In this document: positions 13,546 to 50,890 of the stretch, in pieces
How the letters are laid out: each line of letters begins with the position of its first letter
How positions within the stretch are numbered: position 1 is the first letter of the stretch
DNA from: Rhizophagus irregularis
Lineage: Eukaryota > Glomeromycota > Glomeromycetes > Glomerales > Glomeraceae
NCBI RefSeq assembly: GCF_026210795.1
Contig: NC_089452.1
Span: 1,674,001-1,738,000 of the forward strand
Reading direction: 5' to 3'
Length of the DNA stretch: 64,000 nucleotides
Program-made: the position numbers and the translations under genes
The notes under the pieces: generated by a model
The model's database searches: none
What the model saw: the letters and a program-made list of their open reading frames with translations, nothing else
Told to the model about the DNA's origin: nothing

Positions 13546-13721
13546 CAGTTGACCCCCTTTATAGTCACCCCAGATATAGTCACATCCCCCCTTATAAGCA
13601 CATTTACATTACTAATAAGCTTATTAAAAAAAACCCCTATTTAGTCTCATCATATAGTATTTTTATAATCACACCAATTGTTTTTGGTCCCGAGGGGTGT
13701 GACTATATAGGGATTTGATTG
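13546..13721. mobile_element. Pogo/Tc1-like miniature element (MITE) in the 3' end of Smr copy 2
   Basis: A 176-bp element flanked by TA. The left end begins CAGTTGACCCCCTTTATAGT; the right end, inverted, begins CAATCAAATCCCTATATAGT. The two share the ending ...TATAGTCAC. TA target duplications lie at 13544-13545 and 13722-13723. It holds no transposase. The terminal-repeat style (CAGT..ACCCCC) and TA duplication resemble pogo/Tigger-type members of the Tc1/mariner superfamily. Its right end overlaps the last codons of the Smr gene. Confidence 0.75.
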
Positions 13722-14113
13722 TATACACTACGCATGTAAAAAACAAGAAGTAATATTAATATTAATAAAAAACATCCTGATCTTAATAAATGTTCAATAA
13801 TTAATTTTCTGATAAATAAAGGATTGGGAGTTAAATAAATATAAACTAAATAATATCCATCATGTTTTTTACAATGTTCGATAAAATATTTAACCTTAGA
13901 ATCTGTCATCCATGATGGAAAAGCTTCATAAATAACCCCTCGTTCTCCATTTGCATTTATATGATTTACTCGTCCTGTTATAAATTTTACGTGCGGTACT
14001 TTATTAGAATGACAATTTCTGATCGTTTGTATAACGACATCTTTTGCTTGTTCACTTGTAAGATAGAGCAAATCAATTTCAACTTCTCTCACTGGATAAT
14101 AACAGTCCGTCAT
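13703..14113 (-). CDS. Smr-domain protein with C-terminal membrane segment, copy 2
   Basis: 136 aa. The Smr-like fold is recognisable (VKFITGRVNHINANGERGV, EAFPSWM), but both hallmark motifs are altered: the VDLH of other copies is IDLL, so the histidine is missing, and TGRG is TGRV. It is therefore probably catalytically dead if the family is a nuclease. A hydrophobic stretch (SGCFLLILILLLVF) near residues 113-126 is followed by a short tail. The last five residues (NQIPI) and the TAG stop are encoded by the terminal inverted repeat of the miniature element at 13546-13721. The tail is shorter than in copies 3 and 5, in line with truncation by that insertion. Confidence 0.75.
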   Translation of the reverse strand: MTDCYYPVREVEIDLLYLTSEQAKDVVIQTIRNCHSNKVPHVKFITGRVNHINANGERGVIYEAFPSWMTDSKVKYFIEHCKKHDGYYLVYIYLTPNPLFIRKLIIEHLLRSGCFLLILILLLVFYMRSVYNQIPI

Positions 14114-14999
14114 TTTTTGTTGACTTTTGTTGAATGGGTTGGAGTTTTCTTTCTTTTTTTTTTTAAAAAAAAAATTGCAATAATTTTCAATTTTTAAATT
14201 TATTCCAAATTATTTTGATAAATTTCTAGAAATTTTCGTAACGATAATACAAGAAAATTTAATCTTTTTATGAACAAATCTAAAATGACGATCAGCAAAA
14301 AAAAAACTAAACCGTAAAAGAGGAATAATACTTTTTATCATGCATGAGCTTTATTTATAGGAATGAAACTCTTAAAAAAACAAAAGCGGCGTGATGATCT
14401 TTGAACAATAGTTTCGAATTTTGACGATCGTTTCAGAAACTCAATATGCAAATGATGCGCAACAGTAAAAATAAACAAAGTTTATTTCACACACAATAAC
14501 TTTATAATTTTCAAACATTTATTCATTTTGTACGTGCGTGCTAAACGTGCTATATTATTCGTATTAATGTACTCTGTTAAATGTATCAGAAATAATAGTT
14601 GAATGAAAATTTATAAAACAAAATCTTCAAAAAGGAAAAAAAAAGAGATATTGATAATAAAACTTGGTTTGAATAAAACTTTTTACGTTTTAATGTACGT
14701 ATTATCTTAAAAATAAATTTTTTTCTTAATTGTTATAAAATAATTTTATACTATAAATAAGTTCTAGTTATATATTATATAATACAAGTGTATCATATTA
14801 GCTCCTGTTCAATTCCGGTCGGTTCGATTCTTTCGGTCATATACATTCTATATAGACATTCTATTGATGAAACTGAAAATAAAAATTTCATGGGCCAAAA
14901 CTCAAAAGGTTGTGTTGATATTTCATGTGTTACACAAAAAATCAGACAAACAAACCCTAGTCGAAAAAATGCAACCGACCGGAATTGGAAGGATTAATT

Positions 15000-15516
15000 G
15001 ATCTATTTTTGTAATGAGATTCTTTAATTGTATCTATTAGGGAAACGGTTACCCTTTACGAGGTCCGGATCTTATCACATTGGAAATGATTATACAATAA
15101 TATGAAAGGTCAAAGATAAAAAAAGCAAACTGTCATATTTAATTTTTGATTTAGTATTTCGCATTTGTTGTACAAATAATTTATTTTGTTTTATATTTTG
15201 TCTATAAAATTTTACAAAATAATAAATTCTATCTATTTGGGTGCGTTGAAAAATTTTATATTGTAGATTTTCCAAAAATAAAAATGAAACAAAAAAATAT
15301 TCATTGATCAAAAAGCTAAAAATATCTAACACGAAAAAGGTAATTCAATCAATAACACATTTGTAATATATGAAGAACCAATTATATATCAGACTCAAAG
15401 GACATGCGGGCGGACATTTCCTCATCTAAAACACATAATGACAGTCCTTTTCTACACTCCGGACTAATCAAACGTTTTGCGGTTTTACGCTGAAGATTAT
15501 GAAAATCTGCTTCGTT
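15000..15516 (-). pseudogene. Relic Smr copy interrupted by a ~430-bp segment
   Basis: On the minus strand, 15466-15513 encodes EADFHNLQRKTAKRLI and 15003-15040 encodes IDTIKESHYKN. These are adjacent pieces of an Smr N-terminus like copy 1 (VDLHNFQRETAKRLVINTIKESYYKN). About 430 bp separates them, and the rest of the domain is missing. The same two pieces, more decayed, recur at about 17450-17490 with 17900-17925, and a single piece at about 21470-21512. The interrupted relic was therefore part of the repeat unit before it was amplified. Confidence 0.65.
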
Positions 15517-16078
15517 GTTATTAATTTGATTAATATGTTTTTTAAGAAATTGCAAGGATTAAAAAAACGTTTTTAAAATAATATAAAAAGGACTAAAAAA
15601 TTTCAAAAGATCTTGCGCTAAACAGTATTGGAAGATAAAGAAAGTTATCTTCAAAACAATTCTTAAGATTCTAGAAGTTTGTAATTTGAAACAGCGAGTG
15701 AAACACAAAAAATAGGATTAAACAATACATATTTTAAGAATTGAAACGACGACGATCTTTACCCGTATCAGTTAATAACATCATAACATACCACATGATT
15801 ATATAAATTAAAATATCACCCGCATGGAGTTTCGGGTAGAGTTAAAAATGTGAAATTAAATGATCATCATTTAGCAATTTTCATTGATAAATTTCGCAGT
15901 TTATTTGATAATAATAAAAAAAATATTTGATTTTTAAAAAAATAAATAAAATAACAAGATGCAAATAAAATGTATGATAAGATAAAATAAATGATAAGAT
16001 ATAAATACAAGATATAAATAAATAAAAATAAAAGACATAAAAACTAGTAGAACATGAAACATATGTAAAAATCTAGTA

Positions 16079-16540
16079 TTAATTGTTAGTGTTTGAATAC
16101 GTTATTTTATAATAATCCAAATAATCGCCCAATGAACTTGATAATAAGTTATAACTAATATCTGATATGTATAAAATAAAAATTACTACTAATACTACTA
16201 ATAATAATAAAACTAAAAATGATAATAATGCACATGATTTATTAGCACACGCTCCTTTATTCGAAGAATTAAGATAAACTAAATAATATCCATCATATAT
16301 TTCATAATCTTGGACCAAATATTTAATTTCAGAGTCTCTCATCCACGATGGAAATTTTTCATAAAGAACCCCTCGTTCTCCAGTTGAGTTTATATGATTT
16401 CCTCGTCCTGTTATAAATTTTACGCAGAGTATTTTTCTAGAATGAGATTTTTTAACAGAGTTTATAACGAGACGTCTTGCGTTTTCACGTGTAAGATAGT
16501 GCAAATCAACAACTTCTTGCTCCAATGAATCATAGTACAT
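16079..16540 (-). CDS. Smr-domain protein with C-terminal membrane segment, copy 3
   Basis: 153 aa. The Smr domain, residues about 8-95, has both motifs intact: VDLHYLTRENARRLVI and KFITGRGNHINSTGERG. These are followed by KFPSWMRDSEIKYLV and GYYLVYL. A single strong membrane segment (LLSFLVLLLLVVLVVIFILY) is at about residues 105-125. The tail after it (SDISYNLLSSSLGDYLDYY) is polar and shared with copies 4 and 5. The layout suggests a C-terminally anchored protein with the Smr domain facing the cytosol. Together with copy 5 it is the best candidate for an active member. The start is the only ATG before VDLH. Confidence 0.83.
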   Translation of the reverse strand: MYYDSLEQEVVDLHYLTRENARRLVINSVKKSHSRKILCVKFITGRGNHINSTGERGVLYEKFPSWMRDSEIKYLVQDYEIYDGYYLVYLNSSNKGACANKSCALLSFLVLLLLVVLVVIFILYISDISYNLLSSSLGDYLDYYKITYSNTNN

Positions 16541-17199
16541 ATTGAATAAGTTGGAGTTTATTTTTAAAAAAAATAATTGTCAATTTTTAAATTATTTCAA
16601 GAGCGTTCTTTTTGATAAATTTCTTGAAATTTTCATAAGAAAATTTAACCTTTTTATAAACAATCTAAAACGACGATCAGCAAAAAAAAACTAAACCGTA
16701 AAAGAGAAATAAAGCTCATCATGCATGAGGTTTATTTATAGGGAATGAAACCCTTAAAAAAACAAAGACCGAAAAAATTGTCGTGATGATGATCTTTAAC
16801 AATTGTTTCGAATAATTGATGATCAAACTATGAAATTTAAATATGCGCAATAGCAAAAACAAAGTTTATTACACAAATAGCTTTGTTGAATGTGCCATAG
16901 CAAATAGTTGATGAAAATTTATAAAACAAATCTGCAAAAGGAAGAAAGGAAACCTTGGTAACAAAACTTGTTTTGAATAAATTAATTATATACTTTTTAC
17001 GCCTTAATGTATAACCTTATAACAATTAAGAAAGAAAAAAAAAACATTTTATAAGTAATTTTATATATAGGATCAAAATATGGGTAAATAAGTTTCTCAT
17101 ATTAGCCTTGTTGTTCAATTCTGGTCGGTTGCACTTTTCGGTCATATACAAAATAGACCACCAAAAATTTTTGGGTCAAAAGGTCGGATATCCCATGTG

Positions 17200-17375
17200 G
17201 GATAATTTTACCACACCACCTCGCGTGTTACGAATATTAATAGTGTTGGTTACACTGCATAAAGTGTGTGACATTTTATGCGAGTGACAAATAGAGATCA
17301 GACCACAAAAAATTTTTAAACAACGCGGCCGCCACAAAGTCATCACCTGTACTACGCGAGGTGGTAAGATTTACC
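17200..17375. mobile_element. Miniature element with 9-bp target duplication (MULE-like MITE)
   Basis: A 176-bp insert present in only one array unit. It is flanked by the direct repeat TCCCATGTG (17191-17199 and 17376-17384). Its ends are inverted: the left reads GGATAATTTTACCACACCAC then CTCGCG, and the right, inverted, reads GGTAAATCTTACCACCTCGC. The sister units carry a single uninterrupted TTCATGTG or TTCCGTGTG at the same place (near 14921 and 21395), which are empty sites. A 9-bp duplication is typical of Mutator-like elements. It has no coding capacity, and its core holds a GCGGCCGCC island. Confidence 0.8.
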
Positions 17376-18442
17376 TCCCATGTGTTACACAAAAAATCAG
17401 ACAAACAAAATGAAAAATGCAACCGACCGGAATTGAAAGGATGAATTTAATAATTGATATATTTTTGTAATAAGATTCTTTGATTGTATCTATTAGGGAA
17501 ACGGTAACCGTTACGAAGTCCGGAGCTTATCACGTTGGAAATGATATGAGAGGTCTAAGATAAAAAAGCAAACTGACATATTTAATTTATTTAATTAACT
17601 TTATTTTTGATTTACTTCACATTTGTTGTACAAATAATTTATTTTTGTTTTATATTTGCTATAAAATTTTACAAAAATAATAAAAATTCTATCTATTTGG
17701 GTGTGTTGAAAAAAATTTATATCAAAGATTTTCAAAATAATCATTGATCAAAAAGTTAAAAATATCTAGCTAACACGAAAGAGGTAGTTCAATCATTAAC
17801 ACATTTGAAATCGGACTCAAAGGACATGCGGGCGTATAATGGACATTTTTTGTAATATCTCATCTAAAACATATATGTCAGTCCTTTGCTACGCTCCGGA
17901 CTAATAAAACGTTTTGCGGTTATACACCAAAGATTTACTCCAACTTAATTCAATGGCATTGTTGTTATCAATTTGATTAATATATTTTTTTAAGAAATTG
18001 CAAGGATTAAAAAAATGTTTTTAAAATAATATAAAAGGACTAAAAAATTTTCAAAAAATCTTGCGCTAACAGTATTGGAAGATAAAGTAAGTTATCTTCA
18101 AAAAAATTCTTAAGATTCTTGATTTGAAACAGTGAGTGAAACACAAAAAATAGGATTTCTTTCACAAACAATACATATTTTAAGAATTAAAACGATGACG
18201 ATCTTTATCCTATCAGTTACAACTATCGGGTAGAGTTATCATCACTGGTGAGATTTAGCAATTTTCATATAAATTTCGCAGTTTATTTGATATGTAATAT
18301 TTAATTTTAAAAAATAAATAAATAACAAGATGTAAATAAATGTATGATAAGATAAAAATAAATGACAAGATATAAATACAAGATAAAATAAATAAAAATA
18401 AAAGACATATAAACTAGTAGAACATGAAACATATGCATAAAT

Positions 18443-18865
18443 CTAGTATGTATTATGAATCTTTAAATACGTTATTTTAAGATCCATTAAATAATCGCTC
18501 ATTAAACTTAATTCTGAATCAATTATAACTAATAAGTATAAAATAATAATAATTGCTAATAATAATAAAACTAACAATGATATTTCTTTGAATGCGCGTA
18601 CAAAGAAATCAAGATAAACTATATAAAATCCATCACATGGATCATAATCTTTGACCAAATGTTTAATTTCAGTGTCTAGCATCCACGATGGAAATTCTTC
18701 ATAAAGAACCCCTCGTTCTCCAGTTGCATTTATATGATTTTCTCGTTCTGTTACAAATTTTACGTAGGGTATGCATTTAGAATGACTATCTCTGATCATT
18801 TCTATAGCGATAAGTCTTGCTTCTTCACGTGTAAGATTGTGCAAATCAACTTCATAGTACGCCAT
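18443..18865 (-). CDS. Smr-domain protein with C-terminal membrane segment, copy 4
   Basis: 140 aa from the ATG at 18863-18865 (MAYYEVDLHNLTREEAR). An in-frame ATG 66 nt further upstream would add residues with no counterpart in the paralogues, so I prefer the internal one. The D-x-H motif is kept, but the TGRG loop reads TEREN: both glycines are replaced by glutamate, which is expected to damage a nuclease or nucleic-acid-binding loop. ERGVLYEEFPSWML and FYIVYLDFF follow. The membrane segment (ISLLVLLLLAIIIILYLLVI) is near residues 98-118, followed by a polar tail. The rest of the protein is as conserved as in intact copies, so this may be a diverged function and not simple decay. Confidence 0.78.
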   Translation of the reverse strand: MAYYEVDLHNLTREEARLIAIEMIRDSHSKCIPYVKFVTERENHINATGERGVLYEEFPSWMLDTEIKHLVKDYDPCDGFYIVYLDFFVRAFKEISLLVLLLLAIIIILYLLVIIDSELSLMSDYLMDLKITYLKIHNTY

Positions 18866-20311
18866 TTTTTGTTGACTTTTTAATATTGAATAAATTGAAG
18901 TTTCTTTTAATAAAAATCGCAACAATTTCAATTTTTAAATTATTTCAAGAGCGTTCTTTAAAAGTTATTTTGATAAATTTCTTGAAATTTTCATAATACA
19001 AGAAAAATTTAACCTTTTTATAAACAATCATAACGACGATCGGCAAAAAAAACTAAACCGTAAAAGAGAAATAGAGCTCATCATGCATGAGCTTTATTTA
19101 TAGGGAATGAAACCCTTAAAAAAACAAAGACCGAAAAAATTGGCGTGATGATCTTTAACAATTGTTTCGAATTTTTGATGACCCGTTTTAGAAACTATGA
19201 AATTTAACATGCAAGTGATACGTAATTGCAAAAACAAAGTTTATTACACACACAAATAGCTTTGTTAAATGTGCCAGAGTAAATAGTTGATGAAAAATTT
19301 ATAAAAGAAATCTGCAAAAGGAAGAAAGGGACCTTGATAACAAAACTTGTTTTGAATAAATTAATTATATACTTTTTACGCTTTAATGTATAAATGAACC
19401 TTATAACAATTAAACGTTTTATAGGTAATTTTATATGTAAGATCAAAATATGCGTAAATAAATTCTCATATTAGCCTTGTTGTTCAATTCTGGTCGGTCG
19501 CATTTTTCGGTCATATACAAAGTAAACCATTCTATTGGCGAAATTAAATTTTTGGGTCAAAAAGGTCTGATATTACGCGAAAGATTTACTCCAACTTAAT
19601 TCAATGACATTGCTGTATCAATTTGATTAATATGTTTTTAAGAAATTGCAAGGATTAAAAAAATGTTTTTAAAATAATATAAAAGGACTAAAATATTTTC
19701 AAAAATCTTGCGCTAATAGTATTGAAAGATAAAAGAAAGTTATCTTCAAACAAATTCTTGAAGTTTGTAATTTGAAACAGCGAGTGAAACAAAAAATAGG
19801 ATGTCTTTTTCTCAAACAATAGTATTGAAACGACGACGATCTTTATCCGTATTAGTTAATAACATCATAACATACCACATGACTATCATATAAATTAAAA
19901 TATCACCCGCATGGAGTAAAAATGTGACATCACTGGCAATTTTCATATCACGACCTGATAAATTTCGCAGTTTATTTGATATGTAATAACAAAAAAAAAA
20001 AATATTTAATTTTTAAAAAAATAAATAAAATAACAAGATGTAAATAAATGTATGATAAGATAAAAACCACAACTATCACACTGGTGAGATTTAGCAATTT
20101 CATATCACAACCTGATAAGTTTCGCAGTTTATTTGATATGTAATAACAAAGAAAAAAAAATATTTAATTTTTAAAAAAATAAATAAAATAACAAGATGTA
20201 AATAAATGTATGATATAAAGATAAAAATAAATGACAAGATATAAATACAAGATATAAATAAATAAAATAAAAGAAATATAAACTAGTAGAACATGAAACA
20301 TATGTAAAAAT

Positions 20312-20767
20312 CTAGTATGAATCGTTAGTGTTTGAATACGTTATTTTATAATCCAAATAATCGCTCATTGAACTTAAAGTCGAATAAGTTACAACTAATA
20401 TGTATAAAATATAAGTAAATATTAATAATAATAAAACTAAAAATGATAATAATGCACATAATTGTTTGAATGAAGGAGCATGTGCTAATAAATCAAGATA
20501 AACTAAATAATATCCATTACATGGATCATAATCTTGGACCAAACGTTCAATCTCAGAGTCTAGCATCCACGATGGAAATTCTTCATAAAGAACCCCTCGT
20601 TCTCCAGTTGCATTTATATGATTTCCTCGTCCTGTTATAAATTTTACGCAGGGTATGCATCTAGAATGACAATCTCTGATCTTTTGTATAACGACAAGTC
20701 TTGCGCGTTCACGTGTAAGATAGTGCAAATCAACAACTTCTTGTTCCAATGAATCATAGTACGACAT
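20312..20767 (-). CDS. Smr-domain protein with C-terminal membrane segment, copy 5
   Basis: 151 aa. Nearly all family features are intact: VDLHYLTRERARLVVI, KFITGRGNHINATGERG, EEFPSWMLDSEI and GYYLVYLDL. A membrane segment (LLSFLVLLLLIFTYILYILV) is at about residues 108-128, and a polar tail ends DYLDYKITYSNTNDSY. It is closest to copies 3 and 4. The 3' flank contains a local duplication of about 140 bp (19930-20062 repeated at 20090-20215). Likely functional, with function unknown beyond the Smr fold. Confidence 0.83.
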   Translation of the reverse strand: MSYYDSLEQEVVDLHYLTRERARLVVIQKIRDCHSRCIPCVKFITGRGNHINATGERGVLYEEFPSWMLDSEIERLVQDYDPCNGYYLVYLDLLAHAPSFKQLCALLSFLVLLLLIFTYILYILVVTYSTLSSMSDYLDYKITYSNTNDSY

Positions 20768-22348
20768 TTTTTGTTAACTTTTGAATATTGAATAAGTTGG
20801 AGTTAATTTAAAAAAAAAATAATTGCAATAATTTTTAATTTTTAAATTATTTCAAGGGCGTTCTTTAAGTTATTTTGATAAATTTCTTGCAATTTTCATA
20901 ATTAAAATTTAACCTTTTTATAAACAATCTAAACGACGATCGGCAAAAATGCTCATCATGCATGAGCTTTATTTATAGGGAATGAAACCCTTAAAAAAAC
21001 AAAGACCGAAAAAATTGTCGTGATGATGATCTTTAACAATTGTTTCGAATTTTTGGTCAACTATGAAATTTAAACACGTAATAGCAAAAACAAAGTTTAT
21101 TACACACACAAATAGCTTTGTTAAATATACCAGAGCAAATAGTTGATGAAAATTTATAAACAAAATCTGCAAAAAGGAAGAAAGGGACCTTGATAGCAAA
21201 ACTTGTTTGAAATAAATTAATTACATACTTTTACGCCTTAATATATATAAGAATGTTAGAACAAATTGAAAATATGCGTAAATAAATTCTAGTTATATAC
21301 TGTATAGTATACAACTGTGTCATATTAGCCTTGTCGGTTGCATTTTTCGGTCATGTACAAAATAAACCCAAAAAATTTTTGGGTCAAAAGGTCTGATATT
21401 CCGTGTGTTACACAAAAAAAGACAAACAAAATGAAAACCCAAGAATTGAAAGGATAAATTTAATGATTGATGATATATTTTTGTAATGATATTCTTTGAT
21501 TGTATCTATTAGGGAAACGGTAACTGTAAGTCCGATCACGTTGGAAATGATACAATAAAGTCAAACAAAGATAAAAAAAGCAAGCTGATATATTTAATTC
21601 ACTTTATTTTTGATTCACTTTAATCTATTTCACATTTTTTTTGTAAATTTGTACAAATAATTTATTTTGTTTCATATTTGCTATAAAATTTTACAAAAAT
21701 AATAAAAATTCTATCTGTTTGGGTGCGTTAAAAAAAATTTTACATATTTTTACATCAAAGATTTTCAAAATATAAAATGAAACAAAAAAAAACTTAATTT
21801 GAAACAGAGAGTCACTGCGAGTGAAACACAAAAATAAGATTTTCTTTAATTTCTTTCTTTCTTTCTCAAACCGTACAATATTAAGAATTGAAACAACGAA
21901 AAAATGACGTGACGTCGTGACGATCTTCATCTTAATATACCACATGACTAATTATCCCCACTATCAAAATTAGGGAGGAGTTCTGACAAATTGTTGTCTG
22001 AAATTTCTCGCTAATGCTGATCATGATCATCACTGGTGAGATTTCTATCCTTCGGATCTACTATTTGATATGTAATAATAAAAAAAAAATATTTAAATAA
22101 TAAATGACAAGATATAAATACAAGATATAAATAAATAACAAGACGTAAATAAAATACAAAGATGAAACATACGAGTAAAAAATATGGAATTTTTATAGGA
22201 AAAGTTTAAATAAAAGCTTATAAAGTGAATGATATTTATGGTATGTGATAATTATTAAACGCATGATCGAACGATAACACTTTGAGCTACTATCGGGACC
22301 TTCATTAATTGGTTGGCCACTACGTGGCCCATTTATTTCATTATTTTA

Positions 22349-22712
22349 CAGTTAGACCCCTATATAGTCACACCCTATATAGTCACACCCATCCATTTTT
22401 ACAGAAACCGACTTAAAACATAATAAAAAAAATCTTTTCATATCAAATATTTTAACATACATATTATTTTTATTAATGATTAAACTTCTTTACAGTCACT
22501 TTTCTGATTTGTTGTAGATCTTCAATATGGAATTTTACACAAATTTTGACATATTAATTGTAACACACCATACAAAAATATGTAATTTCGCCACTTCAAA
22601 TAACAAAAACTAACCAACCAAATTGTATATTATCAGCACAGAGGTTCGTGATTACAGTCACTCCACTGTATTAATCAATACTTTTGGCCAAACCAACCTG
22701 GTGGTCTAACTG
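22349..22712. mobile_element. Pogo/Tc1-like miniature element in the 3' end of Smr copy 6
   Basis: A 364-bp element with perfect 10-bp inverted ends (CAGTTAGACC ... GGTCTAACTG), flanked by TA at 22347-22348 and 22713-22714. The subterminal CCCTATATAGTCACACCC resembles the element at 13546-13721, so it is the same or a related family. No transposase is encoded. Its right terminal repeat supplies the last serine codon and the TAG stop of the Smr gene. Confidence 0.8.
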
Positions 22713-23137
22713 TATAAATATAAAGATATATCTATGTATAAAATACAAGTAAATATTATAATTACTAATAAAATATAAATAAATATTAATAATAATAAAA
22801 GTGATAATAATGTTAATGAACATCCAAAAATTAATCTTCTGAATAATGAAGGAGCATGATTTAAATCAAGATAAACTAAATAATAACCATCATATTTTTG
22901 ACATTGTTCAATTAAGTGTCTAATCTCATTATCTAACATCCATGATGGAAAATCTTCATAAAGAACTTCTCGTTCCCCGGTTGCATTCACATGGTTTCCC
23001 CGTCTTGTTATAAATTTTACGCAGGGTATTTTTCTAAAATGACAATCTTTGATCGTTTGTATAACGAGAAGTTTTGTACGATAATGTAAATCAACTTCAA
23101 CTTCAGCTTCTTTCAATGAATAATAATAATATGACAT
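22706..23137 (-). CDS. Smr-domain protein with C-terminal membrane segment, copy 6
   Basis: 143 aa. The D-x-H motif is present (VDLHYRTKLLVIQTI), but about five residues of the first helix seen in other copies (LTRERAR-type) are deleted. The glycine loop reads TRRGNH in place of TGRGNH. The C-terminal half of the domain is kept (EDFPSWMLDNEIRHLIEQC, GYYLVYLDL). The hydrophobic segment (SLTLLSLLLLLIFIYILL and on) runs nearly to the end. The original polar tail is replaced by YIDISLYLYS, whose last codon and stop lie in the terminal repeat of the element at 22349-22712. It is possibly expressed but functionally degraded. Confidence 0.72.
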   Translation of the reverse strand: MSYYYYSLKEAEVEVDLHYRTKLLVIQTIKDCHFRKIPCVKFITRRGNHVNATGEREVLYEDFPSWMLDNEIRHLIEQCQKYDGYYLVYLDLNHAPSLFRRLIFGCSLTLLSLLLLLIFIYILLVIIIFTCILYIDISLYLYS

Positions 23138-23301
23138 TTTTTTGTTAACTTTTAAATATTGAATAAGTTGGAGTTTTAAAAAAAAATTAATTTTTAAATT
23201 ATTTTCAGTAAAAAGTTATTTTGACAAATTTCTTGAAATATTTATTTTTATGAGAAAAAATTTGATCTTTTTATGAACAATCTAAAATGACGCTCATCAT
23301 T

Positions 23302-23465
23302 CCTATAAAAAATTTTATCCGTTCGTAAAAATGAGCCTTTCCCGGATCCATTCACGGAAAATGTAAATTATTCGATAAATCCCGTGATATAAGGTTATTA
23401 AATCCGGAAATATGAGCCTTTTACGGAAAAAAAGATGAAAAAAAGTCGATCCATGTTTTTTATAT
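23302..23465. repeat. Dispersed repeat copy, related to the element at 28297-28481
   Basis: It shares long blocks with 28297-28481: CCTATAAAAAATTTTATCCG at the left, then GGATCCATTCACGGAAAATG, then ATATAAGGTTATTAA and ATATGAGCCTTTTACGGAAA. The right end is degraded and no target duplication is seen, so this is the older or truncated copy. Confidence 0.7.
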
Positions 23466-23949
23466 TCCCATGAGCTCTATTTATGGGGAATAAAAGACCG
23501 AAAATTAGCGTGATGATCTTCGAATAATCGTTTTAAATTTTGATGATCCGTTTCAGAAATTTCATATTAAAATAATTTAAACATGTGACAACAAAAAACA
23601 TTCATTTCCAATATTAATGTACTTTATTTATTAAATATGCCAAGCAAAAAAGTTGTATGAAACAAAATCTGCAAAAGGAAAACAAGAAATCTTGATAACA
23701 AAAATTTTGTAATAAATCACTTTTTATATAACCATATAATGAAAAAAATTTTATTGTATTATTATGAATTTAGTATGAGAGAATAAATTAAAGACGATCA
23801 AAATGAAGACGATCAAAATATGCACAAATGAACAAAAGAAAAGGGATCTACATTATATAGTACAGTTAAATAATCATGGTGTATCAGGTTTGTACAATTT
23901 ATCAAGACCAATCACTAGAATCACTAGAACCGGATGACATTCGCATAAG

Positions 23950-24333
23950 TTAATATATATAATAATAATAATAAAGATATAATGAAAATATCACAAATAA
24001 TAAAAATAATAATAAAATTATAATAATAATTAATGATTTATATGAACGAGATACATAATCTAAATTAATATAAACTAAATAATATCCATTATATGGTTCA
24101 AAATCTTGTACCAAATGTTCAATTTCAGTACCTATTACACATGATGGAAAAGCTTTATGAAGAACTCCTCGCTCTCCATTTGAATTTATATTATGATTTC
24201 CTTTTTCTGTTATAAATTTTATACAGGATATTTTTCTAGAATGAGATTTTTTAACAGATTTTATAACGAGACGTTTTGCGGATTTGCGGTTAAGTTTATG
24301 AAGATCAATTTCAGTTAATGTATTGGATAACAT
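23950..24333 (-). CDS. Smr-domain protein with C-terminal membrane segment, copy 7
   Basis: 127 aa; the first gene of the array in the direction of transcription and one of the most diverged. The D-x-H motif is present as IDLHKLNRKSAKRLVI. The loop reads TEKGNHNINSNGERG, with the first glycine replaced and one residue inserted. CVIGTEIEHLVQDF replaces the usual WMLDSEI segment, so the conserved tryptophan is lost. The C-terminus is a run of isoleucine, leucine and tyrosine (LIIIIILLLFLLFVIFSLYL) with no tail after it. It is an intact frame, possibly degenerate in function. Confidence 0.72.
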   Translation of the reverse strand: MLSNTLTEIDLHKLNRKSAKRLVIKSVKKSHSRKISCIKFITEKGNHNINSNGERGVLHKAFPSCVIGTEIEHLVQDFEPYNGYYLVYINLDYVSRSYKSLIIIIILLLFLLFVIFSLYLYYYYYIY

Positions 24334-24834
24334 TATTATTATTGATTATTGGTTAATTTGTTATTTTCTTTTAATTATTAATATTTGAAATTGAAAAAAT
24401 TATGTCGAAGTAAAATCAATTTCCACATTATTTATAAATGATTTGAAATAATACAAATATTACGGACAAAAAGGTATAATACGTATAATACGTATATATA
24501 TTTCTATTTTAATAAAAGTGTTTTCCTTTCTTGTTTTACGATCACTTTCATTGACAATCTCGTATCACAAAAAACGTCATACCTTGTAATCTTTGTTTGG
24601 CTACAAAATCAATGAATGAAATCATTGATAGTCAAATTTGGTTGATTGTTAAACCGGAAATCCGGAACTACGGAATATAAGATACCCTATTTTCTTTTTT
24701 TACATTGGTGTTTTAAAAGACTTATTAAGTATAAATGTTTACTTTTACAATGAACTTATTTAATAATCATCAATTTTTATTTCTCTTTTAATTCATGAAT
24801 AAACAAAAAAAAATTTTATTTATATTTCCTCTTT

Positions 24835-26695
24835 TTATTTTTTATTCTTTGTATAAAATAAACTTAATGAAATGCAAATACTTAATAAACAGGCGCATGA
24901 ACTAAAATAATAGACTGTTATATAACAATCGGTTCCTGTACATTCATTCCTTTTATGTTGATCATTATTATAACCGAACAATAAATTAAATAGTTGCCCT
25001 CCAAAAGCCGGAATCTATAAAATAAAATATGTTATTAATTTGTATGAATTTTGTATGAATTTGTATGTAAAATAAAATTAATAATAAAGTAAATATTTAC
25101 GCATGCAATCATTCCCCTAAAAATTTTTAAAAAAAAATTTCGATTAGAATTTTATATTTTAAATATTGTTTCTATTGTTTCTCTACTTTTATATTTAACT
25201 TACCAATTAGATCCAAATCTTTTAGTTCCAAACCATTCACTAACGATTATAGGAGTAATGGAATATAAATTTCCAAATCCAACTCCAACAAATATTGTAA
25301 CTATCAATAATTTATCCAAATCATCAACATAAAATAATATTAATAATTGAGCCAAAAATATCCAAACTCCGGATAATATAAAAAAGAATGATCTAGGTAT
25401 TTTAAATAATAATCTTGCCATATCCGATATAAATCCGATGGATAATCTTCCTAAACAAGAGAAAATAGATAGAATGAATACGTGCGTATTTTGTAATTTA
25501 TAAATTGGTGGTAAAGTAGAAGAAGAATGTGAAGAATATAATGATTCGATTATCGTTCCAACATTATTTATATACATCAATCCCGCACCAGAAAAAAAAA
25601 ACATTGTTATTGCTAATAATTTTGCATCAATATTATTAATAAAATCCCATCCACCAATATCAATTTCTTCGTTAATTTTATTTTGTAATAATGGTGTATC
25701 TTCAAATTTATCATTTTGTTTTGTGCTACAAGAAGATGAATTTCCTTCTTCGAGTGTTACAACGGTAGTATCCTGATTTATTGATGGTGGTACTACGACT
25801 AAAAACCAACTTCCAATAAATATACATAATCCTGTACTTATGGCTAAAAATAGTAAGAAATGATAATTATCATTCTTAAACCACAAACTATTTATTTCTG
25901 AATATATTGCTGCTGATAATCCGGATAACGCAATCGGTGCCCCGAGTGATATTCCTCTGAATGATGTAATGTTTTTTGCCTAATTATCAAAAAAAAAAAA
26001 ATTTCATTTCACGAGCGTTATTAAAATTTCTTATCATTTTTGACCAAAAAAGAATCCAATACATTTTTGACAAAAAAAGGATCCATTATTATTTTGCCAA
26101 AAAATGAATCCATTATCATTTTTATTTTTTTTAAAAAATATAAATCAAAGGCACTCACGACTATTACGAGACTTGACATTAAACCTGTAAAAAAAAAAGA
26201 AAAAGAAAAATTAATCAAAAATGAGCGACGACAATCAATGCAAGCAAACACAAAAATTTACCTGCAGCTGACGCCATTCCTGCTAAAAACATGTAAAAAG
26301 CACATAATAAGAATGATGGCCTAAGATTTCCTTCATAAGTCATTGCAAGGCAAAAGTATCCAATGAATATAATAAAAGCAGCAAAAAATGGTCTACATAT
26401 AAAAAGATAACCATTAAATCACGTGATTATGTGACGATTATGTGACATTAATTAATGAAATTATCAAATACCTTCTTCCTCCAAAATTATCAGCTATATA
26501 ACCAAAAATTGGTTTACCAAGATAAACACCATAATTTGCAGCACTTCCAATTGTATTTATTTGAATAGAACTAAAATTTAATCGTTCTGCCAATGTTGTG
26601 CTATACGCGGAGAAAAGATATTGTGTACCACATACTGAAGATATTAAAAGTGCTGCTATAAAACTTAATGTTAGTTTTATTACTCGTAAATTCAT
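24835..26695 (-). CDS. Major facilitator superfamily transporter (Mch1-like), six exons
   Basis: Spliced exons 26472-26695, 26262-26392, 26159-26184, 25204-25979, 25101-25116 and 24835-25014 give 450 aa in a continuous frame, each with GT/AG ends. Two exons are tiny (26 and 16 nt). The first segment (FIAALLISSVCGTQYLFSAY) starts helix 1, and YLGKPIFGYIADNFGGRR is the MFS loop between helices 2 and 3. A long hydrophilic central loop follows VVVPPS and includes DTPLLQ. The C-terminal half has LGRLSIGFISDMARL and a late FGTKRFGSNWGMIAC motif, like the monocarboxylate transporter-like (Mch1/nodulin-like) MFS group. It likely moves a small organic solute across a membrane, possibly vacuolar; the substrate cannot be read. 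Nothing looks broken. It lies immediately upstream of the Smr array on the same strand. Confidence 0.85.
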
Positions 26696-36341: not shown

Positions 36342-37861
36342 AATTAATAAATATCTTTAATAAAAATTTATTGTAAAAGAAGTTAAAGGATTTGATCTTT
36401 GCAACTTTTTTAGCTTTTTATAGAATAAGCTATCGACTAATAAGATTATTGACTGCGTGATTGTATAACAAATCATTGATTACCATAAATGGTATTGCGT
36501 AAGAAAAAAAAGTTAAAAAAAAAGTTAAAAAAAAAGTTTAAAAAAAAAAGTTTAAAAAAAAAGTTTTTAAAAATTTCACATCTTAATATTTTTGAAAATG
36601 TAAGAGCTTGAATATTTTTCAAAAGATTTTAATTTACTGTTATTCCTTTAACAATTTTTAAATACTATTATCTGTAAAAACCTTATCTAGAGATGTATAA
36701 AATAATATTAACTATTAAATTCTTACATAAATTTAGGAAAAAAAAATATGAACTCGTTTCAACAATAATTCCGATATTAAATATTTAAATGTCAAAGTTC
36801 ATGTTAAAATAGATAAACAAGTTTATTGTCATCTGAAATCCCCAAAAAATTTTCTTTATATAGTATACGTATGCTTATTATATTATTAAATGAAATTTAA
36901 ATTTTTCGTTATTCTCAATTTTTATATTCAAATATATCTCAATATTTTTAGTAATGTCTGAATCAGTGTTCGGAAAATGATTTAAATGATAAAGATTCAT
37001 CATCTGTATTTTCAATCATTTAAATTATATTATTGCGCTTTTCAAAATTGTGCTACCCCCTGCAGGTCATCTAATAAAAAAGATTATGAGATTATGATTA
37101 TAGGACGATTACAGGACAAAAACTGGACAATTTTGTCCTGTAATCGTCCTATAATCATCCTATAATCGTCCTATAATCATAATCACTCAGTAATTGTCCA
37201 GTAATTGTCCTGTAATTGTCCTGTAATCATAATCATCAAGTAATTATAACGTATACAGAATTCTGAAAACTGCGATAAATAATATCGTGTATTCCAAATT
37301 TATTCCGCTTATTTTAAAATAAAGGTAAGTTATATTACCGTATATTATGTGTATAATAATAAAAAAAAGAAAAAAATTGCATCACGTGATTTATTATTTT
37401 ATATAATTATGTTTGACAAATCACGCGATAATGTGATTAAAATTGAATTATCCGAGCCATTTAATGTGGCTGTGAAATGAAAACAAATGGTAAAGATAAT
37501 AGTATGATGTCAATTATTCAAAACCAGCTAAAACATAATCCATTATGTAAAAATGTGGCATATTTACAATTATACACACAATATTTATTTTAAAAAAGAA
37601 ATTATCTATTTCCACATTATTAATTTAAAGTGGCACTGTTCGTTCCGATTGTGGCGCAATGGGCGCAATGGGCGCAATGTAAAAAATCGTGGCAAAAATA
37701 CACTTGTACGAATATAAAAAATATAACCATGAAATATTTGTCATTATAGAAAAACTTTCTTATAAAAACACCTTGAGACAATAAAAATTTCTTCAAACAA
37801 ATTAAACAAACAACGAATTAAAAAGTTATACATATCACGAAAAAATATATTATCTGAAATC
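36342..37861. other. Region upstream of the repeat-precursor gene
   Basis: No gene seen. It holds an A-rich minisatellite of the form GTT(T)A(n) at 36494-36570, the hairpin and tandem repeats at 37090-37240, and a 9-bp tandem repeat, GGGCGCAAT x3, near 37653-37680. The promoter of the downstream gene presumably lies in the last few hundred bases, but no motif stands out. Confidence 0.5.
37096..37240. repeat. Perfect 26-bp hairpin followed by ATCCTATAATCGTCC-type tandem repeats
   Basis: Arms 37096-37121 and 37131-37156 are perfect inverted copies (core GGACGATTACAGGACAAAA) with a 9-base loop. Imperfect repeats of GTCCTATAATCAT and GTCCTGTAATTGT continue to about 37240. It looks like the end of a dispersed repeat or a foldback. 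Confidence 0.75.
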
Positions 37862-38504
37862 ATGCAATTAAAACACTTACTATTGATTTTTGGCTTTACT
37901 ATGGCTTTAGCGAGTAAATAAATTATTAAAAAATTTTTTCTTTTTTATCAAATTAGTCAAACGAATTCTTTTAATAATATTTTAATTCACCATTGACGCA
38001 GACGCAGCACCAGAAGCCTATGGCTATAAACGTGACGCAGAACCAGAAGCCTATGGCTATAAACGTGACGCAGAACCAGAAGCCTATGGCTATAAACGTG
38101 ACGCAGAACCAGAAGCCTATGGCTATAAACGTGACGCAGAACCAGAAGCCTATGGCTATAAACGTGACGCAGAACCAGAAGCCTATGGATATAAACGTGA
38201 CGCAGAACCAGAAGCCTATGGATATAAACGTGACGCAGAACCAGAAGCCTATGGCTATAAACGTGACGCGGTACCAGAAGCCTATGGATATAAACGTGAC
38301 GCGGTACCAGAAGCCTATGGATATAAACGTGACGCGGTACCAGAAGCCTATGGATATAAACGTGACGCAGAACCAGAAGCCTATGGATATAAACGTGACG
38401 CAGAACCAGAAGCGTATGGCTATAAACGTGACGCAGAAGCTGAAGCCTATGGATATAAACGTGATGCAGAACCAGAAGCCCAACCAGGGAGAGCATGGTC
38501 GTGA
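37862..38504 (+). CDS. Secreted KEX2-processed repeat precursor (pheromone- or RiPP-like)
   Basis: Exon 1 (37862-37913) encodes a signal peptide, MQLKHLLLIFGFTMALA. After an 88-nt intron (GTAAAT...GACGCAG), exon 2 (38002-38504) continues in phase, giving 184 aa. After AAPEAYGYKR come 13 further 11-residue units: nine DAEPEAYGYKR, three DAVPEAYGYKR and one DAEAEAYGYKR. The final segment is DAEPEAQPGRAWS. Every unit ends in Lys-Arg, the kexin (KEX2) site. The six residues after each site are three dipeptides of X-Ala or X-Pro form, the substrates of Ste13-type dipeptidyl aminopeptidase, as in yeast alpha-factor. Processing would leave Y-G-Y, or a nonapeptide if untrimmed. Known relatives in logic are alpha-pheromone, Rep1/Ece1-type precursors and dikaritin RiPP precursors with tyrosine cores. 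No tailoring enzyme is in the window. An alternative acceptor 6 nt downstream also stays in frame. Confidence 0.82.
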
Positions 38505-40149
38505 TGCAGACGCGTGTGAGGCGCGCTCTATGGCTATTATAAACGTGACGCAGACGCAGAAGCTTAATTTTAAAATTCAAAAATTAACAAATTTTTATGT
38601 AAATTTATTTTATTCGGTAATATTGTATAATAATTAAAATATTCAATTTTTTACTTCATAATAAGGTATACTATATGATATTAGTTTAATAGAACTATTA
38701 TATTTTTACTGTCCCGACATAGATCAATTATATAATAAAATAAATTTCATACATTAAACCTTTTTTTTTTTTGATTATTGATATCATAGTAAATAAATTA
38801 AATTTAATATCATTCTACTTACTAATGGGTTGACAGTGTTCTTTTTTTTCCTACCTTCCTACCACTAGGCGTCACCTGTCGACATAATTAAACAAATAAA
38901 ACTCTTTCTCGTACCAAAAAACATTTTTAAGAGTTTTATGAACACTTTTATAACTTCTTTTCCATAAAAACTTTTATTTTCACACTTTTTCTTCATATTT
39001 CTATTTCGTGAAATTTTAGGTACAATTTTTTTATCGACCTGCTTCGCCCACTCAAAAGTTACTTAATAATATATGAAGGAAGTGTCCAACTCACATACAG
39101 AACAAGCCGTTTTACGGCTTTACAAACCACTTCGATTCTTTTCACAAATTTCGCTTAACCCTGTATTTCCGGAGTCGATACTCGGATTTTTTTAAAATTA
39201 TACTAATGTTCGTTGTTAATAAATAATAAGGTAAATTAAATAAATACATCATTATCCATAAATACACTCTATATACTGTTTTTTTTTAATTAAATAAATT
39301 CATTAAATTAATTAAAATATAAATAAAAAAGAAGGAATAACTATTACTCGAGGAGTGGACTTTTGACCTTGAGTCCAATATTTATTTTTCGCCTATATAT
39401 ATCCGTAGTTCCGTACAAATGAAAAAAAAAATGAAAATGGAATAAAGGCGCTCACCATAGCACTAGTCCGATCACTGACCTAAACCTAAAGGGGAAAAGG
39501 ACAAAAAATGAAAAATGAAAAAGAAAAAAAATAAATTAAAAATCCATTTTAAAAAACTGTGAAAGGAAAAAATCCAGTCTTAAAAGAACCGGAATGAAGG
39601 GGAAATTTTTTAATAAAAGAAAAAATCCATAAATCTGGTTTTCAAAGCCCGTAAAAAAGAAAGACGAAAAAATTTCTCGGTTTAACCGTTAAGGAAATAA
39701 CCAAAAAAAAAATAATTTTCAGTTTAATAAGAAACAATGGATAAATTCAGTTTAACCATGTCCTGAAATGATGGAAATGGCACCGTTAGCATTACTATCA
39801 CAACTGAAACTGGATTAGTGTTAGTCACAAGATTGGCTATCAGGACATGACCTCAATAGCCAATCAAATTACATGGAATAGACAATTCAAGAGGGTAATC
39901 TAAATATCACAATTATTCAGTGGACGTTAATATTGTCTTCTGATCAAAATAATTATCGTTAGTCGTTACCATTAATATTTGACACGACAAAAACACATAC
40001 TGGAGATGAACCAAGTTGATACACAACTCAAATCAAGAAAAAGAAGTATTCAGAATATATTTTTTTAAGAGTAATTCATAAATGAATTATAATTTAATAT
40101 TTACAATTGTTGTAAAATTTATTTATTTATTATTTTATAATAGTGAAAT
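38505..40149. other. Region downstream of the repeat-precursor gene
   Basis: 38505-38565 still resembles precursor coding sequence in other frames (RDADACEARSMAI, then KRDADAEA before a TAA), so the ancestral precursor probably extended further. Beyond it, 38570-40149 is AT-rich with no gene recognised. The stretch 39340-39720 is purine-rich (GAAAAAATCCA-type words). Confidence 0.4.
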
Positions 40150-41281: not shown

Positions 41282-43168
41282 ATGGATGAAAAGCCAAAAA
41301 ATTTATGGGAGGAAGCTGATACTAGTAAATATCAGGTAATAGCAATTTAATATGTTAATAATTATAATTATTTATTGAATTTTTGTAATTTAATTTTTTG
41401 TCTATTAAAAGGCATATGTTACAACTTCTACTATTAATCCAACTATTGAATCAGAAAATGTAGATGAAAAAATAGTTTATATAGAAGATTTAGAAAAAAG
41501 AAGACAAGCATATGGAATATGTGGAGAATGTAATGAACCTGGTACAGGATTTAAATGGTGTCAACCTTGTAATGCTAAAAGATTTAAGGATAACTTTAAA
41601 AATTGGACTAGTGGAAATAAAGATATTGATGAATTTATACAACAATCACAACTTAATGCTGTGCATTATACAAATTATCTTGAATGGATACCTTTTGAAA
41701 AATTTCAAAATGTCACTTATATTGCAGAAGGTGGTTTTGGTAAGGTTTATTCAGCAGAATGGCCTGAAGGAAATATTGAATATTGGGATATTGAAAATCA
41801 AAAGTGGTATAGATATAGTTATAAATATGCATTAAAAAGTTTGAATACTTTTTCTGATATATGTACAGATTTTATAAATGAGGTAATTTAAACTTGCTTT
41901 GTCTTATGTATAAAGATTGTTATTTGCATTTATTTATTAATAAATTTTTTCCTTTTTGATGATAATTAGATTAAATCTCATCTTCAGATTTATCTTAGTA
42001 ATATTGTTTACTGTTATGGAATTACTCAAGATCCAAATAATAAAGAGTATTTGATGGTTTTATATTATTGTGAATTTGGAAATTTGAGAAATTATTTAAA
42101 TAAATCTAAAAATTATATCAATTATAAATCAAAAATTGATTACTTACAACACATTGCAAGAGGACTCTTAAATATTCATAATGCTAAAAAAGTTCACAGA
42201 GATTTTCATTCAGGCAATATATTAGTTAATAATTCTTATTATTCATTTATAAGTGATTTAGGTATGTGTCAACCAGCAAGTATAAAGCAATCAGTTAAAG
42301 AAGAAGGAATCCATGGAGTATTACCATATATGGCACCAGAAGTTTTACGTGGATACCAATATACAAAAGCAGCAGATATTTACTCATTTGGAATAATAAT
42401 GAACGAATTTCTTTCTGAAGAAATTCCTTTTAATGATATTCCTCATGATGAATTTTTAGCTATTAAAATATGTAAAGGACTTAGACCAACAATTTCTAAA
42501 GACGTACCAAAGTTACTTAAAGATTTGATAATAAAATGTTGGGATGCTGAAATAAAAAATAGACCAACCACTAAAGAGGTATATCAAATACTAAATGAAT
42601 GGAATGATGGTGCCAATAGTCAAAATAGTGAAATTTATTTTCAAATAAAAGAATGTGATAAAATTGGAGAAGAAAAATTCAAAAACAGATTAAATGAACA
42701 TAAATGCAAAAAAAGCTTCCAAACACATCCACAAGCATTTTATACTAGTAGACTTTTAAATTTTAAAAATCTTCCAAAACCAGTAAATTTTTCAGATTTA
42801 TCATCTTTTCAAATCAGTTCAGGTAATTAAATATAATTTTATTTTATCATATAATTCATTTTACATTATTTATGTTATTTTATTTTTAATATATGCTAAC
42901 TATACTGCTCAATCAACATCAGCAAATCCAAGTAAGTATTCTCTTAATTATCATTATTATAATTATTCTATTTACATTTGTTAACAATTAAATACTATGA
43001 ATACATAATATACAGTTTCAGAATGCCTAGATGTTCAATTAAGTGAATTGGGTAAGTTATTATTTATTTGTAATTTATTAATATTTCCTTTCTAATTTAT
43101 CTAATCTATTTTGTTTTTTTATAGAACTAAATGAAATTTGTCAAGATAGTGAACATAATATTGAATGA
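41282..43168 (+). CDS. TKL-like protein kinase with N-terminal zinc ribbon, six exons
   Basis: Exons 41282-41335, 41412-41882, 41970-42822, 42923-42931, 43016-43051 and 43125-43168 give 488 aa in frame. Exon 4 is a 9-nt microexon needed to keep phase. A four-cysteine ribbon (CGECNEP...WCQPC) at residues about 53-70 is followed by the linker NWTSGNKDIDEFI. The kinase domain starts with IAEGGFGKVYSAEW and has the lysine strand YALKSL. Next come the catalytic loop HRDFHSGNILVN, DLG in place of DFG (SDLGMCQ), and MAPEVLRG. C-lobe residues CWDAEIKNRP follow. The tail carries FYTSRLLNF and LDVQLSELELNEICQDS. All catalytic residues are present, so it is probably active on Ser/Thr or Tyr; the pathway is unknown. 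This family is massively expanded in Rhizophagus. The whole gene sits in a 3.1-kb segment that splits a spacer repeat. Confidence 0.85.
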
Positions 43169-45372: not shown

Positions 45373-46207
45373 ATGATTGTTATTACCTCATTATTTTCAT
45401 TAGGTAAATAATTATTATGTTTTATACAACTTGTACGTAAATATTAATAATAATAATAATAAAATATTCTAATATTCTTTATAATTTTTTCGTCACTTTT
45501 CAAAATATGATAGCATATAATTTATTTATAGCAGAGAATCCAGAATTCGTGAATCGGTCTTTGAGATTAGTATTTAATATGTATGATAATAATCTTGATT
45601 CGTACGTATATTTTTATTAATTTTAATTAAACGAAAATTTTGTCAAAAATATTAATAATTTATAAATATTTATATTATTTTATATATTAGAATATTATTG
45701 ATTGTTTGATTTTTTGCAGGTAAGGAAATATATAAATTTTTATTTAAAATACTTTTCTTTTTTTTATTTTTAACCTCTCTTATTATAGTTATTATAAACA
45801 CTCTTACATTCTTTACAAGTTGGAATGATATGTGTTATGTATTTAGTGTAATTCGCTGTATGAGTCATATAATTGGTTATTTATGTTTGATAATGTTCCT
45901 TTCATGTGTTATTAGGATGGATACCAAATCTGAACATAATTCTCAACAAAATGTTGACGAGAAAACTCCTTTATTAAATGATGATGTTGATGTGAAATTA
46001 ATTGATGATGAAGAAATTAACGTGAGATGTATTGAAGCTGATAATAAAGAAACTGAAGTTGATGTAATCGATGTTGATGTGGAACTAATTAATGATAATG
46101 AAATTGACGTGAAATGTATTGAAGCTGACAAGAAAGAAACTGAAGTTGATGTAGTTGATGCGAAGTTGATTAAAATTGATAATTCAAAAGGACAACATAA
46201 AGTATAA
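45373..46207 (+). CDS. Small membrane protein with acidic repeat tail; exon structure uncertain
   Basis: The firmest part is the frame 45789-46207. It holds a hydrophobic N-terminal part (VIRCMSHIIGYLCLIMFLSC, probably one membrane segment), the motif DEKTPLLND, and an acidic tail. The tail contains two imperfect copies of a 29-residue unit (DVDVKLIDDEEINVRC..., then DVDVELINDNEIDVKC...). Upstream, MIVITSLFSLG (45373), ENPEFVNRSLRLVFNMYD (45535-45605) and a possible 29-nt exon near 45690-45718 look like earlier exons with good GT/AG ends. I could not join them to the last frame in phase. E-K-T-P-L-L resembles an acidic dileucine sorting signal, suggesting endosomal or vacuolar targeting. No family recognised. 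Confidence 0.45.
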
Positions 46208-49519: not shown

Positions 49520-50890
49520 AAGGCTTTACCATTATCCATTTTCAATTTTTTAAATAATCTGGATGACTCTTTGCTATCATTATCTATAATCAAGATATTA
49601 ATAAATTAGTATTTATTTCATTATAAAATTACCTTTAAAATTAATTGATGTATATTGATTACTTGATTTACTAAGATTACTAGCTATAATGTTTTATTTA
49701 TACTATAAAATTTAATATTGTTTTAATAAATACTTACTATTATCAGAAATACTAAAATCATATGATCTAGTGGTATAAAATACTATTTAAAAAAAAAGAT
49801 TATTTCAATCTATTCATTAATTAAAGGATTTATATATATACTAAGAGTCTAAGTCATTATTATTAAATTTATATCACCTTTTTGCTCTTCTATTATTATT
49901 TAATTAAAAAAAAAAAGATATCATTAATTATAATATTAAAGAAAAAAAATTAAATAGTTAATAAACATTAAAAAAGCATACCTTCTGTTGCATTTTTTGG
50001 TTCAGGTAGATTTTCAAAATTATGAATTTTACTTGTAAATATTTTACTACTCATTATACTATTGATTGTTTTTTATCTACTTTTATTATTGATCGAGGTA
50101 GTTCATCAGGTTTATTTTGATAATATAATTTAATTTCGTTTATTTTATTAAAGAGTGTATAAATATCAGGTCTTTTTACTGGATCAGCATCCCAACATTG
50201 TTCCATTAGACTTTTATATTCGGAAGGAATTTCTGATATAATTTTAGGTCTTATACCATCAATGATATTAATTGCAAGAATATAATCATGTTCATAATTC
50301 ATAAATGGAGGTTGCCCAAATGAAATTTCCCACATAAGCATTGCAATACTATAAATATCAGATTTATAAGTATACCCTTTTCCATTAATAACTTCAGGAG
50401 CTATGTAAGGAAGATTTCCATATATACTTGTTGATGGTTTGTCTACAGGGCCACAAAATCCAAGATCACTAATACGCCAAGAATCATTAAACTGTGAATA
50501 TAATATATTTCCAGAATGCAAATCTCTATGAATTGAATTCTCTTTATGAATATAATAAAGTTTATCAATAATTAAATAAGTAATTTTAATTCTTTCATTC
50601 CATGTAAGTTGATTATGATTTTGTTGTAAATATTCTCTTAAATTCATATCAAACTTTCTGATTACAAGTAAATAATTTTCATTTGATGGATTTTGTGTTA
50701 AACCAAAAATTGAACGATAGATGATTGTTTGTTGCCTAAAGTTAAATGTGATTCAGCCTTTAAAAAATGATAAATATTATTAACAATTAAATTTAAAATT
50801 AAGTTCTTTAAATATTTTTACTTACAAACCTCTTCAAACCAACTGTGACTATATCTATTTGATGAGTGACTCAATAAAATGATCCTTATT
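49520..50890 (-). pseudogene. 5'-truncated TKL-like kinase gene
   Basis: The main exon (50054 to about 50730) encodes the part after the glycine loop: IFGLTQNPSNENYLLVI, then MNLREYLQQ. It has the catalytic loop HRDLHSGNILYS, then SDLGFCGP, YIAPEVINGK, WEISFGQPPF and CWDADPVKRP. A short upstream exon (SHSSNRYSHSWFEE) is at about 50832-50885. No N-lobe glycine loop or lysine is found further upstream, so the gene lost its 5' part. Downstream tail exons are recognisable: SSKIFTSKIHNFENLPEPKN (49985-50047), VFYTTRSYDFSISDN (about 49740-49790), SNLSKSSNQYTSINF (about 49633-49680) and SSRLFKKLKMDNGKALNI (49523-49580). The main frame reaches a stop just before the SSKIF tail, which lies in another frame. 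Without the ATP-binding lobe it cannot be an active kinase. Confidence 0.72.

Follow-up and report, generated by a model that had tools for sequence, protein, structure and literature searches.

A predicted KEX2-processed repeat precursor of Rhizophagus irregularis and its place in a family of shared leaders with differing payloads

In the window, the whole 64,000-nt stretch of Rhizophagus irregularis DNA analyzed here, positions 37862-38504 hold what looks like an intact gene for a secreted KEX2-processed repeat protein. We consider it probable that its product is a secreted precursor trimmed to the tripeptide Tyr-Gly-Tyr (YGY) and that the peptide has a signaling role. Genome-wide comparison showed the predicted gene to be one of at least 62 leader loci that join a shared 5′ module to differing second exons. 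The earlier note on this DNA missed this family of loci and its many different predicted payloads. The locus is organized as follows.

37862-38504 (+): coding region, from the ATG at 37862 to a stop ending at 38504; predicted spliced protein of 184 residues.
37757-37778 (+): promoter-like motif TTCTTATAAAAACACCTTGAGA, 105 nt upstream of the ATG, matching the family motif at 20 of 22 positions; putative function.
37862-37913 (+): exon 1, coding for a leader that resembles a signal peptide, MQLKHLLLIFGFTMALA, and ending with the first base of the following codon.
37914-38001 (+): intron of 88 nt, phase 1, GT-AG; its donor GTAAATAA contains an in-frame stop.
38002-38504 (+): exon 2, with 14 YGYKR units and XA/XP dipeptide spacers, then DAEPEAQPGRAWS and the stop TGA at 38502-38504.
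38505-38567 (+): 3′ relic past the present stop, reading CRRV-stop-GALYGYYKRDADAEA-stop in the repeat frame; a remnant of the ancestral 3′ end, to which two paralogues align with their own 3′ ends.

Re-reading of the sequence reproduced the coordinates, the 88-nt intron, the leader and the 14 YGYKR units that had been proposed, and the prediction of a hidden spliced gene with a secretory-type leader and a short tyrosine peptide is supported by this structure and by the family at 62 loci. As read from the sequence, the leader has a Lys near its N terminus, a hydrophobic core and the residues ALA preceding the mature part. An unspliced message would terminate after 19 residues at the in-frame stop in the donor, which stands directly after the leader, so that splicing would be needed for any peptide to be made. 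The predicted splicing at 37914-38001 is supported by the relatives, most of which share the exon 1 length and donor position. A second acceptor, likewise in frame, lies 6 nt further on (intron end at 38007 instead of 38001), and the choice between the two would alter just the first residues of the mature part. Among the 65 tandem-repeat rows of the window, this repeat scores highest (834, for 14.5 copies of 33 bp with 96% matches); to the 184 residues it contributes an initial partial unit and 13 complete units of 11 residues each. The C terminus of this copy is disturbed, ending in DAEPEAQPGRAWS with the relic frame beyond the stop. As a separate observation on the donor (37914-37921) and those of the relatives, intron retention could serve as a switch.

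All relatives described here are loci of one genome, that of R. irregularis (146,748,485 bases in 32 contigs). Searching with DNA that spans the promoter, the leader and the intron (window 37600-38020) yielded 69 matches, and queries from relatives yielded 49, 54 and 40; each search scored its best 40 candidates, and the locus count is therefore a lower bound of at least 62. A leader profile run over the retrieved stretches found 71 matches at 62 separate loci, and the third relative query added nine leader-like matches, all outside these loci. An ATG stands at the expected place in 54 of the 62, 49 have a spliced model and 33 have a Lys-Arg model above the score, a count that leans towards the precursor reading because the score rewards KR and an XA-XP start. 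The remaining eight leader loci are without the ATG, and many family loci look broken or gave no model. When the same score was applied to a shorter stretch, with 20 rounds in which the downstream DNA was shuffled, Lys-Arg models arose at 32 of 54 real loci, compared with 2.4 on average and at most 7 among 54 shuffled ones. Models with at least two XA/XP dipeptides after a Lys-Arg were found at 30 of the 54 real loci and at none of 54 in each shuffled round. The loci are also clustered: 31 of the 62 lie no more than 50 kb from a second one, as against 2.6 on average and at most 12 under random placing that assumed equal-sized chromosomes.

Among the 33 precursor models, exon 1 measures 52 nt in 28, 55 nt in three and 49 nt in two; the donor reads GTAAAT in 28, and the intron spans 62-106 nt in 30. 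For the 54 ATG-bearing loci, the distance from the ATG to a GTA is exactly 52 nt in 38, and GTAAAT occupies this position in 33. Further upstream, a 22-nt TATA-type motif, counted when at least 17 of 22 positions match, occurs at 37 of 54 loci and in none of 54 shuffled upstream sequences, starting at a median of 101 nt before the ATG. Mean identity over the 378 pairs formed by 28 relatives is 82% in exon 1, 73% in the intron, 71% in the 5′ flank and 66% at the start of exon 2 (61%, 64%, 65% and 58%, respectively, in shuffled pairs). In 54 of these pairs, picked for intron identity below 0.65 (mean 0.61; shuffled introns, 0.64), exon 1 identity still averages 0.81, and the donor position is retained even where the intron sequence has decayed.

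The pattern EAYGYKR gave 64 matches at six places in the genome: the window, C24:1.408 Mb, C20:2.223 Mb, C2:1.755 Mb, C20:1.900 Mb and C22:3.314 Mb (reversed-pattern control: none). The last of these is a frame-broken two-unit fragment, at which the leader query found no match. Spacers around YGY vary mostly as whole dipeptides (DA, EA, DAEPEA, DAEAEA, DAVPEA) while the core stays constant, which is the strongest point that the sequence offers in favor of dipeptidyl trimming. The main exception is the seven DAEPVYGYKR units of locus L013, which would yield VYGY, not YGY. L013 and L015 terminate exactly in YGY-stop, the predicted mature C terminus; this may be a mature C terminus laid bare or a frame accident. 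The locus at C20:1.900 Mb (L012) has diverged, with an exon 1 one codon shorter and the GTAAAT donor after the first codon base, like the others. It carries a dual payload (3309-4494) of 11 YGYKR units followed by a long QEE array, with 47 Lys-Arg in total, and its 208-nt intron model may conceal another small exon.

Payload cores across the family comprise YGY; QHY and QRY; QNF, QEY, QSF and QEF; FNY, AVAF, GVGF and VEY; LVAV and WGAF; and EDFN. Tyr, Phe or Trp ends 32 of the 62 distinct non-terminal cores, whose other residues are 11% aromatic. Another trait is the N-terminal Gln of 14 of these 62 cores, which could give pyroglutamate peptides by analogy with Coprinopsis, where many peptides from KEX2-processed repeat proteins (KEPs) are pyroglutamated (PMC9769878). 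At least two XA/XP dipeptides open 72% of 83 non-redundant post-Lys-Arg fragments (shuffled mean 7%, maximum 16%); such a dipeptide is absent from 12 of the 83, and EDFN and QEE are among the payloads with no XA/XP spacer. L023 (C16:3.899 Mb), a precursor of 195 residues, contains 28 Lys-Arg; its cores are EDFN/KDFN, and the majority of its units are without the spacer. L029 and L030 (C7:5.327 and C7:4.446 Mb) are near-identical and combine the shared leader with a cysteine-bearing payload and no Lys-Arg; the leader may thus also carry cargo of another kind.

The anatomy of the precursor and the presence of the protease families suggest a route of processing. Once the message is spliced and translated, the leader would direct the precursor into the secretory pathway. 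Kexin would then cleave behind every Lys-Arg, the Lys-Arg would be stripped by a Kex1-type carboxypeptidase, and stepwise trimming by a Ste13-type dipeptidyl peptidase would take off DA-EP-EA (or DA-VP-EA, DA-EA-EA). Up to 14 linear Tyr-Gly-Tyr tripeptides would be released, and their most likely role would be extracellular peptide signaling, to the fungus itself or to the host. All 14 Lys-Arg sites are followed by at least three XA/XP dipeptides, a STE13-type spacer, in agreement with the three X-Ala/X-Pro dipeptides per site reported by the earlier note; the kexin plus dipeptidyl-aminopeptidase layout that it described is supported. The genome contains one proprotein-convertase P-domain locus whose C-terminal part has a hydrophobic segment and then an acidic tail, a layout that fits kexin, along with two loci with DPPIV_N and Peptidase_S9 pieces as Ste13-like candidates and several serine carboxypeptidase S10 loci. 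A search for UstYa-type, Kex2 and Ste13 genes had been suggested; the kexin-type and DPPIV_N/Peptidase_S9 loci are present, but UstYa (DUF3328) had no match in the whole genome, a weak negative since control genomes also gave none.

KEX2-processed repeat proteins with STE13 signatures and tyrosine peptides are already known for R. irregularis. Le Marquer et al. 2019 described many KEPs in this fungus, most with STE13 signatures, and tyrosine-rich peptides (PMC6339444), and the same source mentions seven R. irregularis KEPs differentially expressed in earlier work. The window gene shares with them a putative signal peptide, KR-bounded repeats, XA/XP after KR, tyrosine-rich peptides and the species. 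That survey required at least four KR/RR fragments, at least three of them similar; the window gene has 14 KR and 14 YGY units, and its repeats make up at least 15% of the protein, a further KEP criterion. The claim of a new secreted peptide needs qualifying, since the kind was already reported in this species, possibly with this very gene included. Elsewhere, agaricomycete KEPs give linear peptides, with STE13 motifs present in the Pleurotus and Lentinula ones (PMC9769878), and possible Kex2 sites were noted in RIC proteins of Geosiphon (PMC8786786).

The family differs from what was surveyed in two respects. One or two Lys-Arg are present in 20 of its 33 precursor models (at most two [KR]R sites in 19), below the four-fragment threshold, which suggests that a survey under the PMC6339444 criteria would miss about 20 of the 33. 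Second, a leader exon, intron and upstream motif common to different payloads are not described in the available text of PMC6339444, nor was a shared leader module with variable payloads found in the literature searched (titles and abstract starts, with few subscription journals). The shared-leader, many-payload architecture is therefore new as far as this literature reaches. The string AYGYKR was absent from the article texts searched, figures and supplements aside. We tentatively propose that in this mycorrhizal fungus, long regarded as asexual, these loci might form a modular peptide vocabulary, in which one 5′ module copied to more than 60 places and fast-changing second exons would supply signals of mostly three to six residues (YGY, Q-x-[FY], FNY, WGAF and others) under one kexin/dipeptidyl-peptidase code, to be used in recognition either among fungi or between fungus and host plant. 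The family supplies tens of candidate ligands whose short predicted sequences lend themselves to synthesis, so that secretion, perception and effects on symbiosis are directly testable.

Two more specific roles for the peptides deserve weighing. Symbiosis effectors acting on the host plant would accord with a clustered multigene family of diverse payloads and with the group of putatively Kex2-cleaved proteins, having very short repeated motifs and mostly in planta expression, reported by Kamel et al. 2017 (PMC5293756). On balance we rate such a role as unlikely. Tripeptides are weak candidates for specific binding, and we know of no plant target for such peptides.

The alpha-factor-like layout raises instead the idea of sexual or nonself-recognition pheromones read by the fungus' own receptor, which we regard as rather doubtful. 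Like yeast and other ascomycete MF-alpha precursors, the predicted protein has a leader, KR, EA/DA-type dipeptides and a repeated peptide; unlike them, it has no long pro-region and no Pfam MF_alpha match at E up to 1, and its core of three residues compares with 9-24 in alpha-type pheromones (PMC6339444). One STE3 receptor gene is present in the genome, in line with Halary et al. 2013, who reported a pheromone-sensing pathway with one STE3 and, in the text available, no peptide-pheromone genes (PMC3834313); it is because of this gap that tens of candidate ligands matter. The STE2 search of the genome was empty, which is weak evidence given that control genomes also gave none, although the same type of search did find STE3. 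In other fungi, STE3 senses lipidated a-type peptides, and tens of payloads are hard to match to one receptor. Upon co-inoculation of two isolates, genes for mating pheromones were not upregulated, according to the text available (PMC7490403).

The preferred reading, linear signaling peptides, also fits the spacers better than a cyclized RiPP like ustiloxin does. Dikaritins (ustiloxin, phomopsin) resemble the window gene in their Kex2-cut repeats with tyrosine cores, and cyclization was raised for R. irregularis in PMC6339444 itself, but the XA/XP spacers of the window gene are typical of linear alpha-type peptides (PMC6339444). The kinship with dikaritins put forward in the earlier note finds no backing in the UstYa search, weak as that negative is, and none of the 357 Mucoromycota KEPs listed by Umemura 2020 has a DUF3328 neighbor in the part of that article available (PMC7329392). 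Neither UstYa nor tyrosinase matched in four scanned neighboring ORFs of the window (41970-42827, kinase; 50057-50752, kinase; 45710-46204, unmatched; 25203-25979, MFS-like). We deem cyclized products very improbable.

Codon changes among the repeats identify the YGYKR frame as the constrained one. Repeat units were chosen solely on DNA identity, with 26 of 33 bases as the minimum, giving 48 units of 33 nt from four paralogous arrays including that of the window; units of other lengths, namely the seven DAEPVYGYKR of L013 and nine short KREAYGY of L013 and L015, fall outside this sample. Synonymous changes outnumber non-synonymous ones by 55 to 17 in the YGYKR frame, as opposed to 1 vs 73 and 0 vs 67 in the two other forward frames and 0 vs 72, 16 vs 51 and 10 vs 64 in the three reverse frames. 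Third codon positions take 59 of the 76 base changes in the YGYKR frame. The seven distinct replacements all fall within D-A-E-P, leaving E-A-Y-G-Y-K-R untouched, and two of them are Pro to Ala, which preserves the XA/XP rule. Because the synonymous changes are frame-specific, the antisense and shifted open frames read as shadows, as had been supposed, and 37993-38637 (+), 37971-38483 (-) and 37987-38580 (-) are rejected as genes. That a 33-bp tandem satellite yields several long open frames by chance, with no protein function, can hardly be credited against the frame-specific synonymous changes and a leader, donor and spacer grammar preserved over diverged relatives. The leader codons discriminate poorly (pN/pS 0.43 in frame vs 0.44 and 1.07 in the shifted frames).

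Several database matches were set aside. A Pfam Antistasin match is a low-complexity artefact whose stretches fail on their own, and the NCBIfam matches, far under cut-off, are artefacts of the same kind. A 38%-identity match in a Saccharofermentans MAG was not accepted as kinship, and a scan for bacterial-type promoters and terminators is uninformative for a fungus.

Elsewhere in the window, protein-kinase ORFs lie nearby at 41409-42830 and 50054-50752. Seven similar ORFs stand in a row at 12216-24345 on the minus strand (12216-12704, 13703-14209, 16079-16579, 18443-18934, 20312-20773, 22706-23215 and 23950-24345), a local gene expansion. Its members share a hydrophobic stretch at the C terminus and a region resembling Smr, with Pfam Smr matching two of the three ORFs that were scanned.
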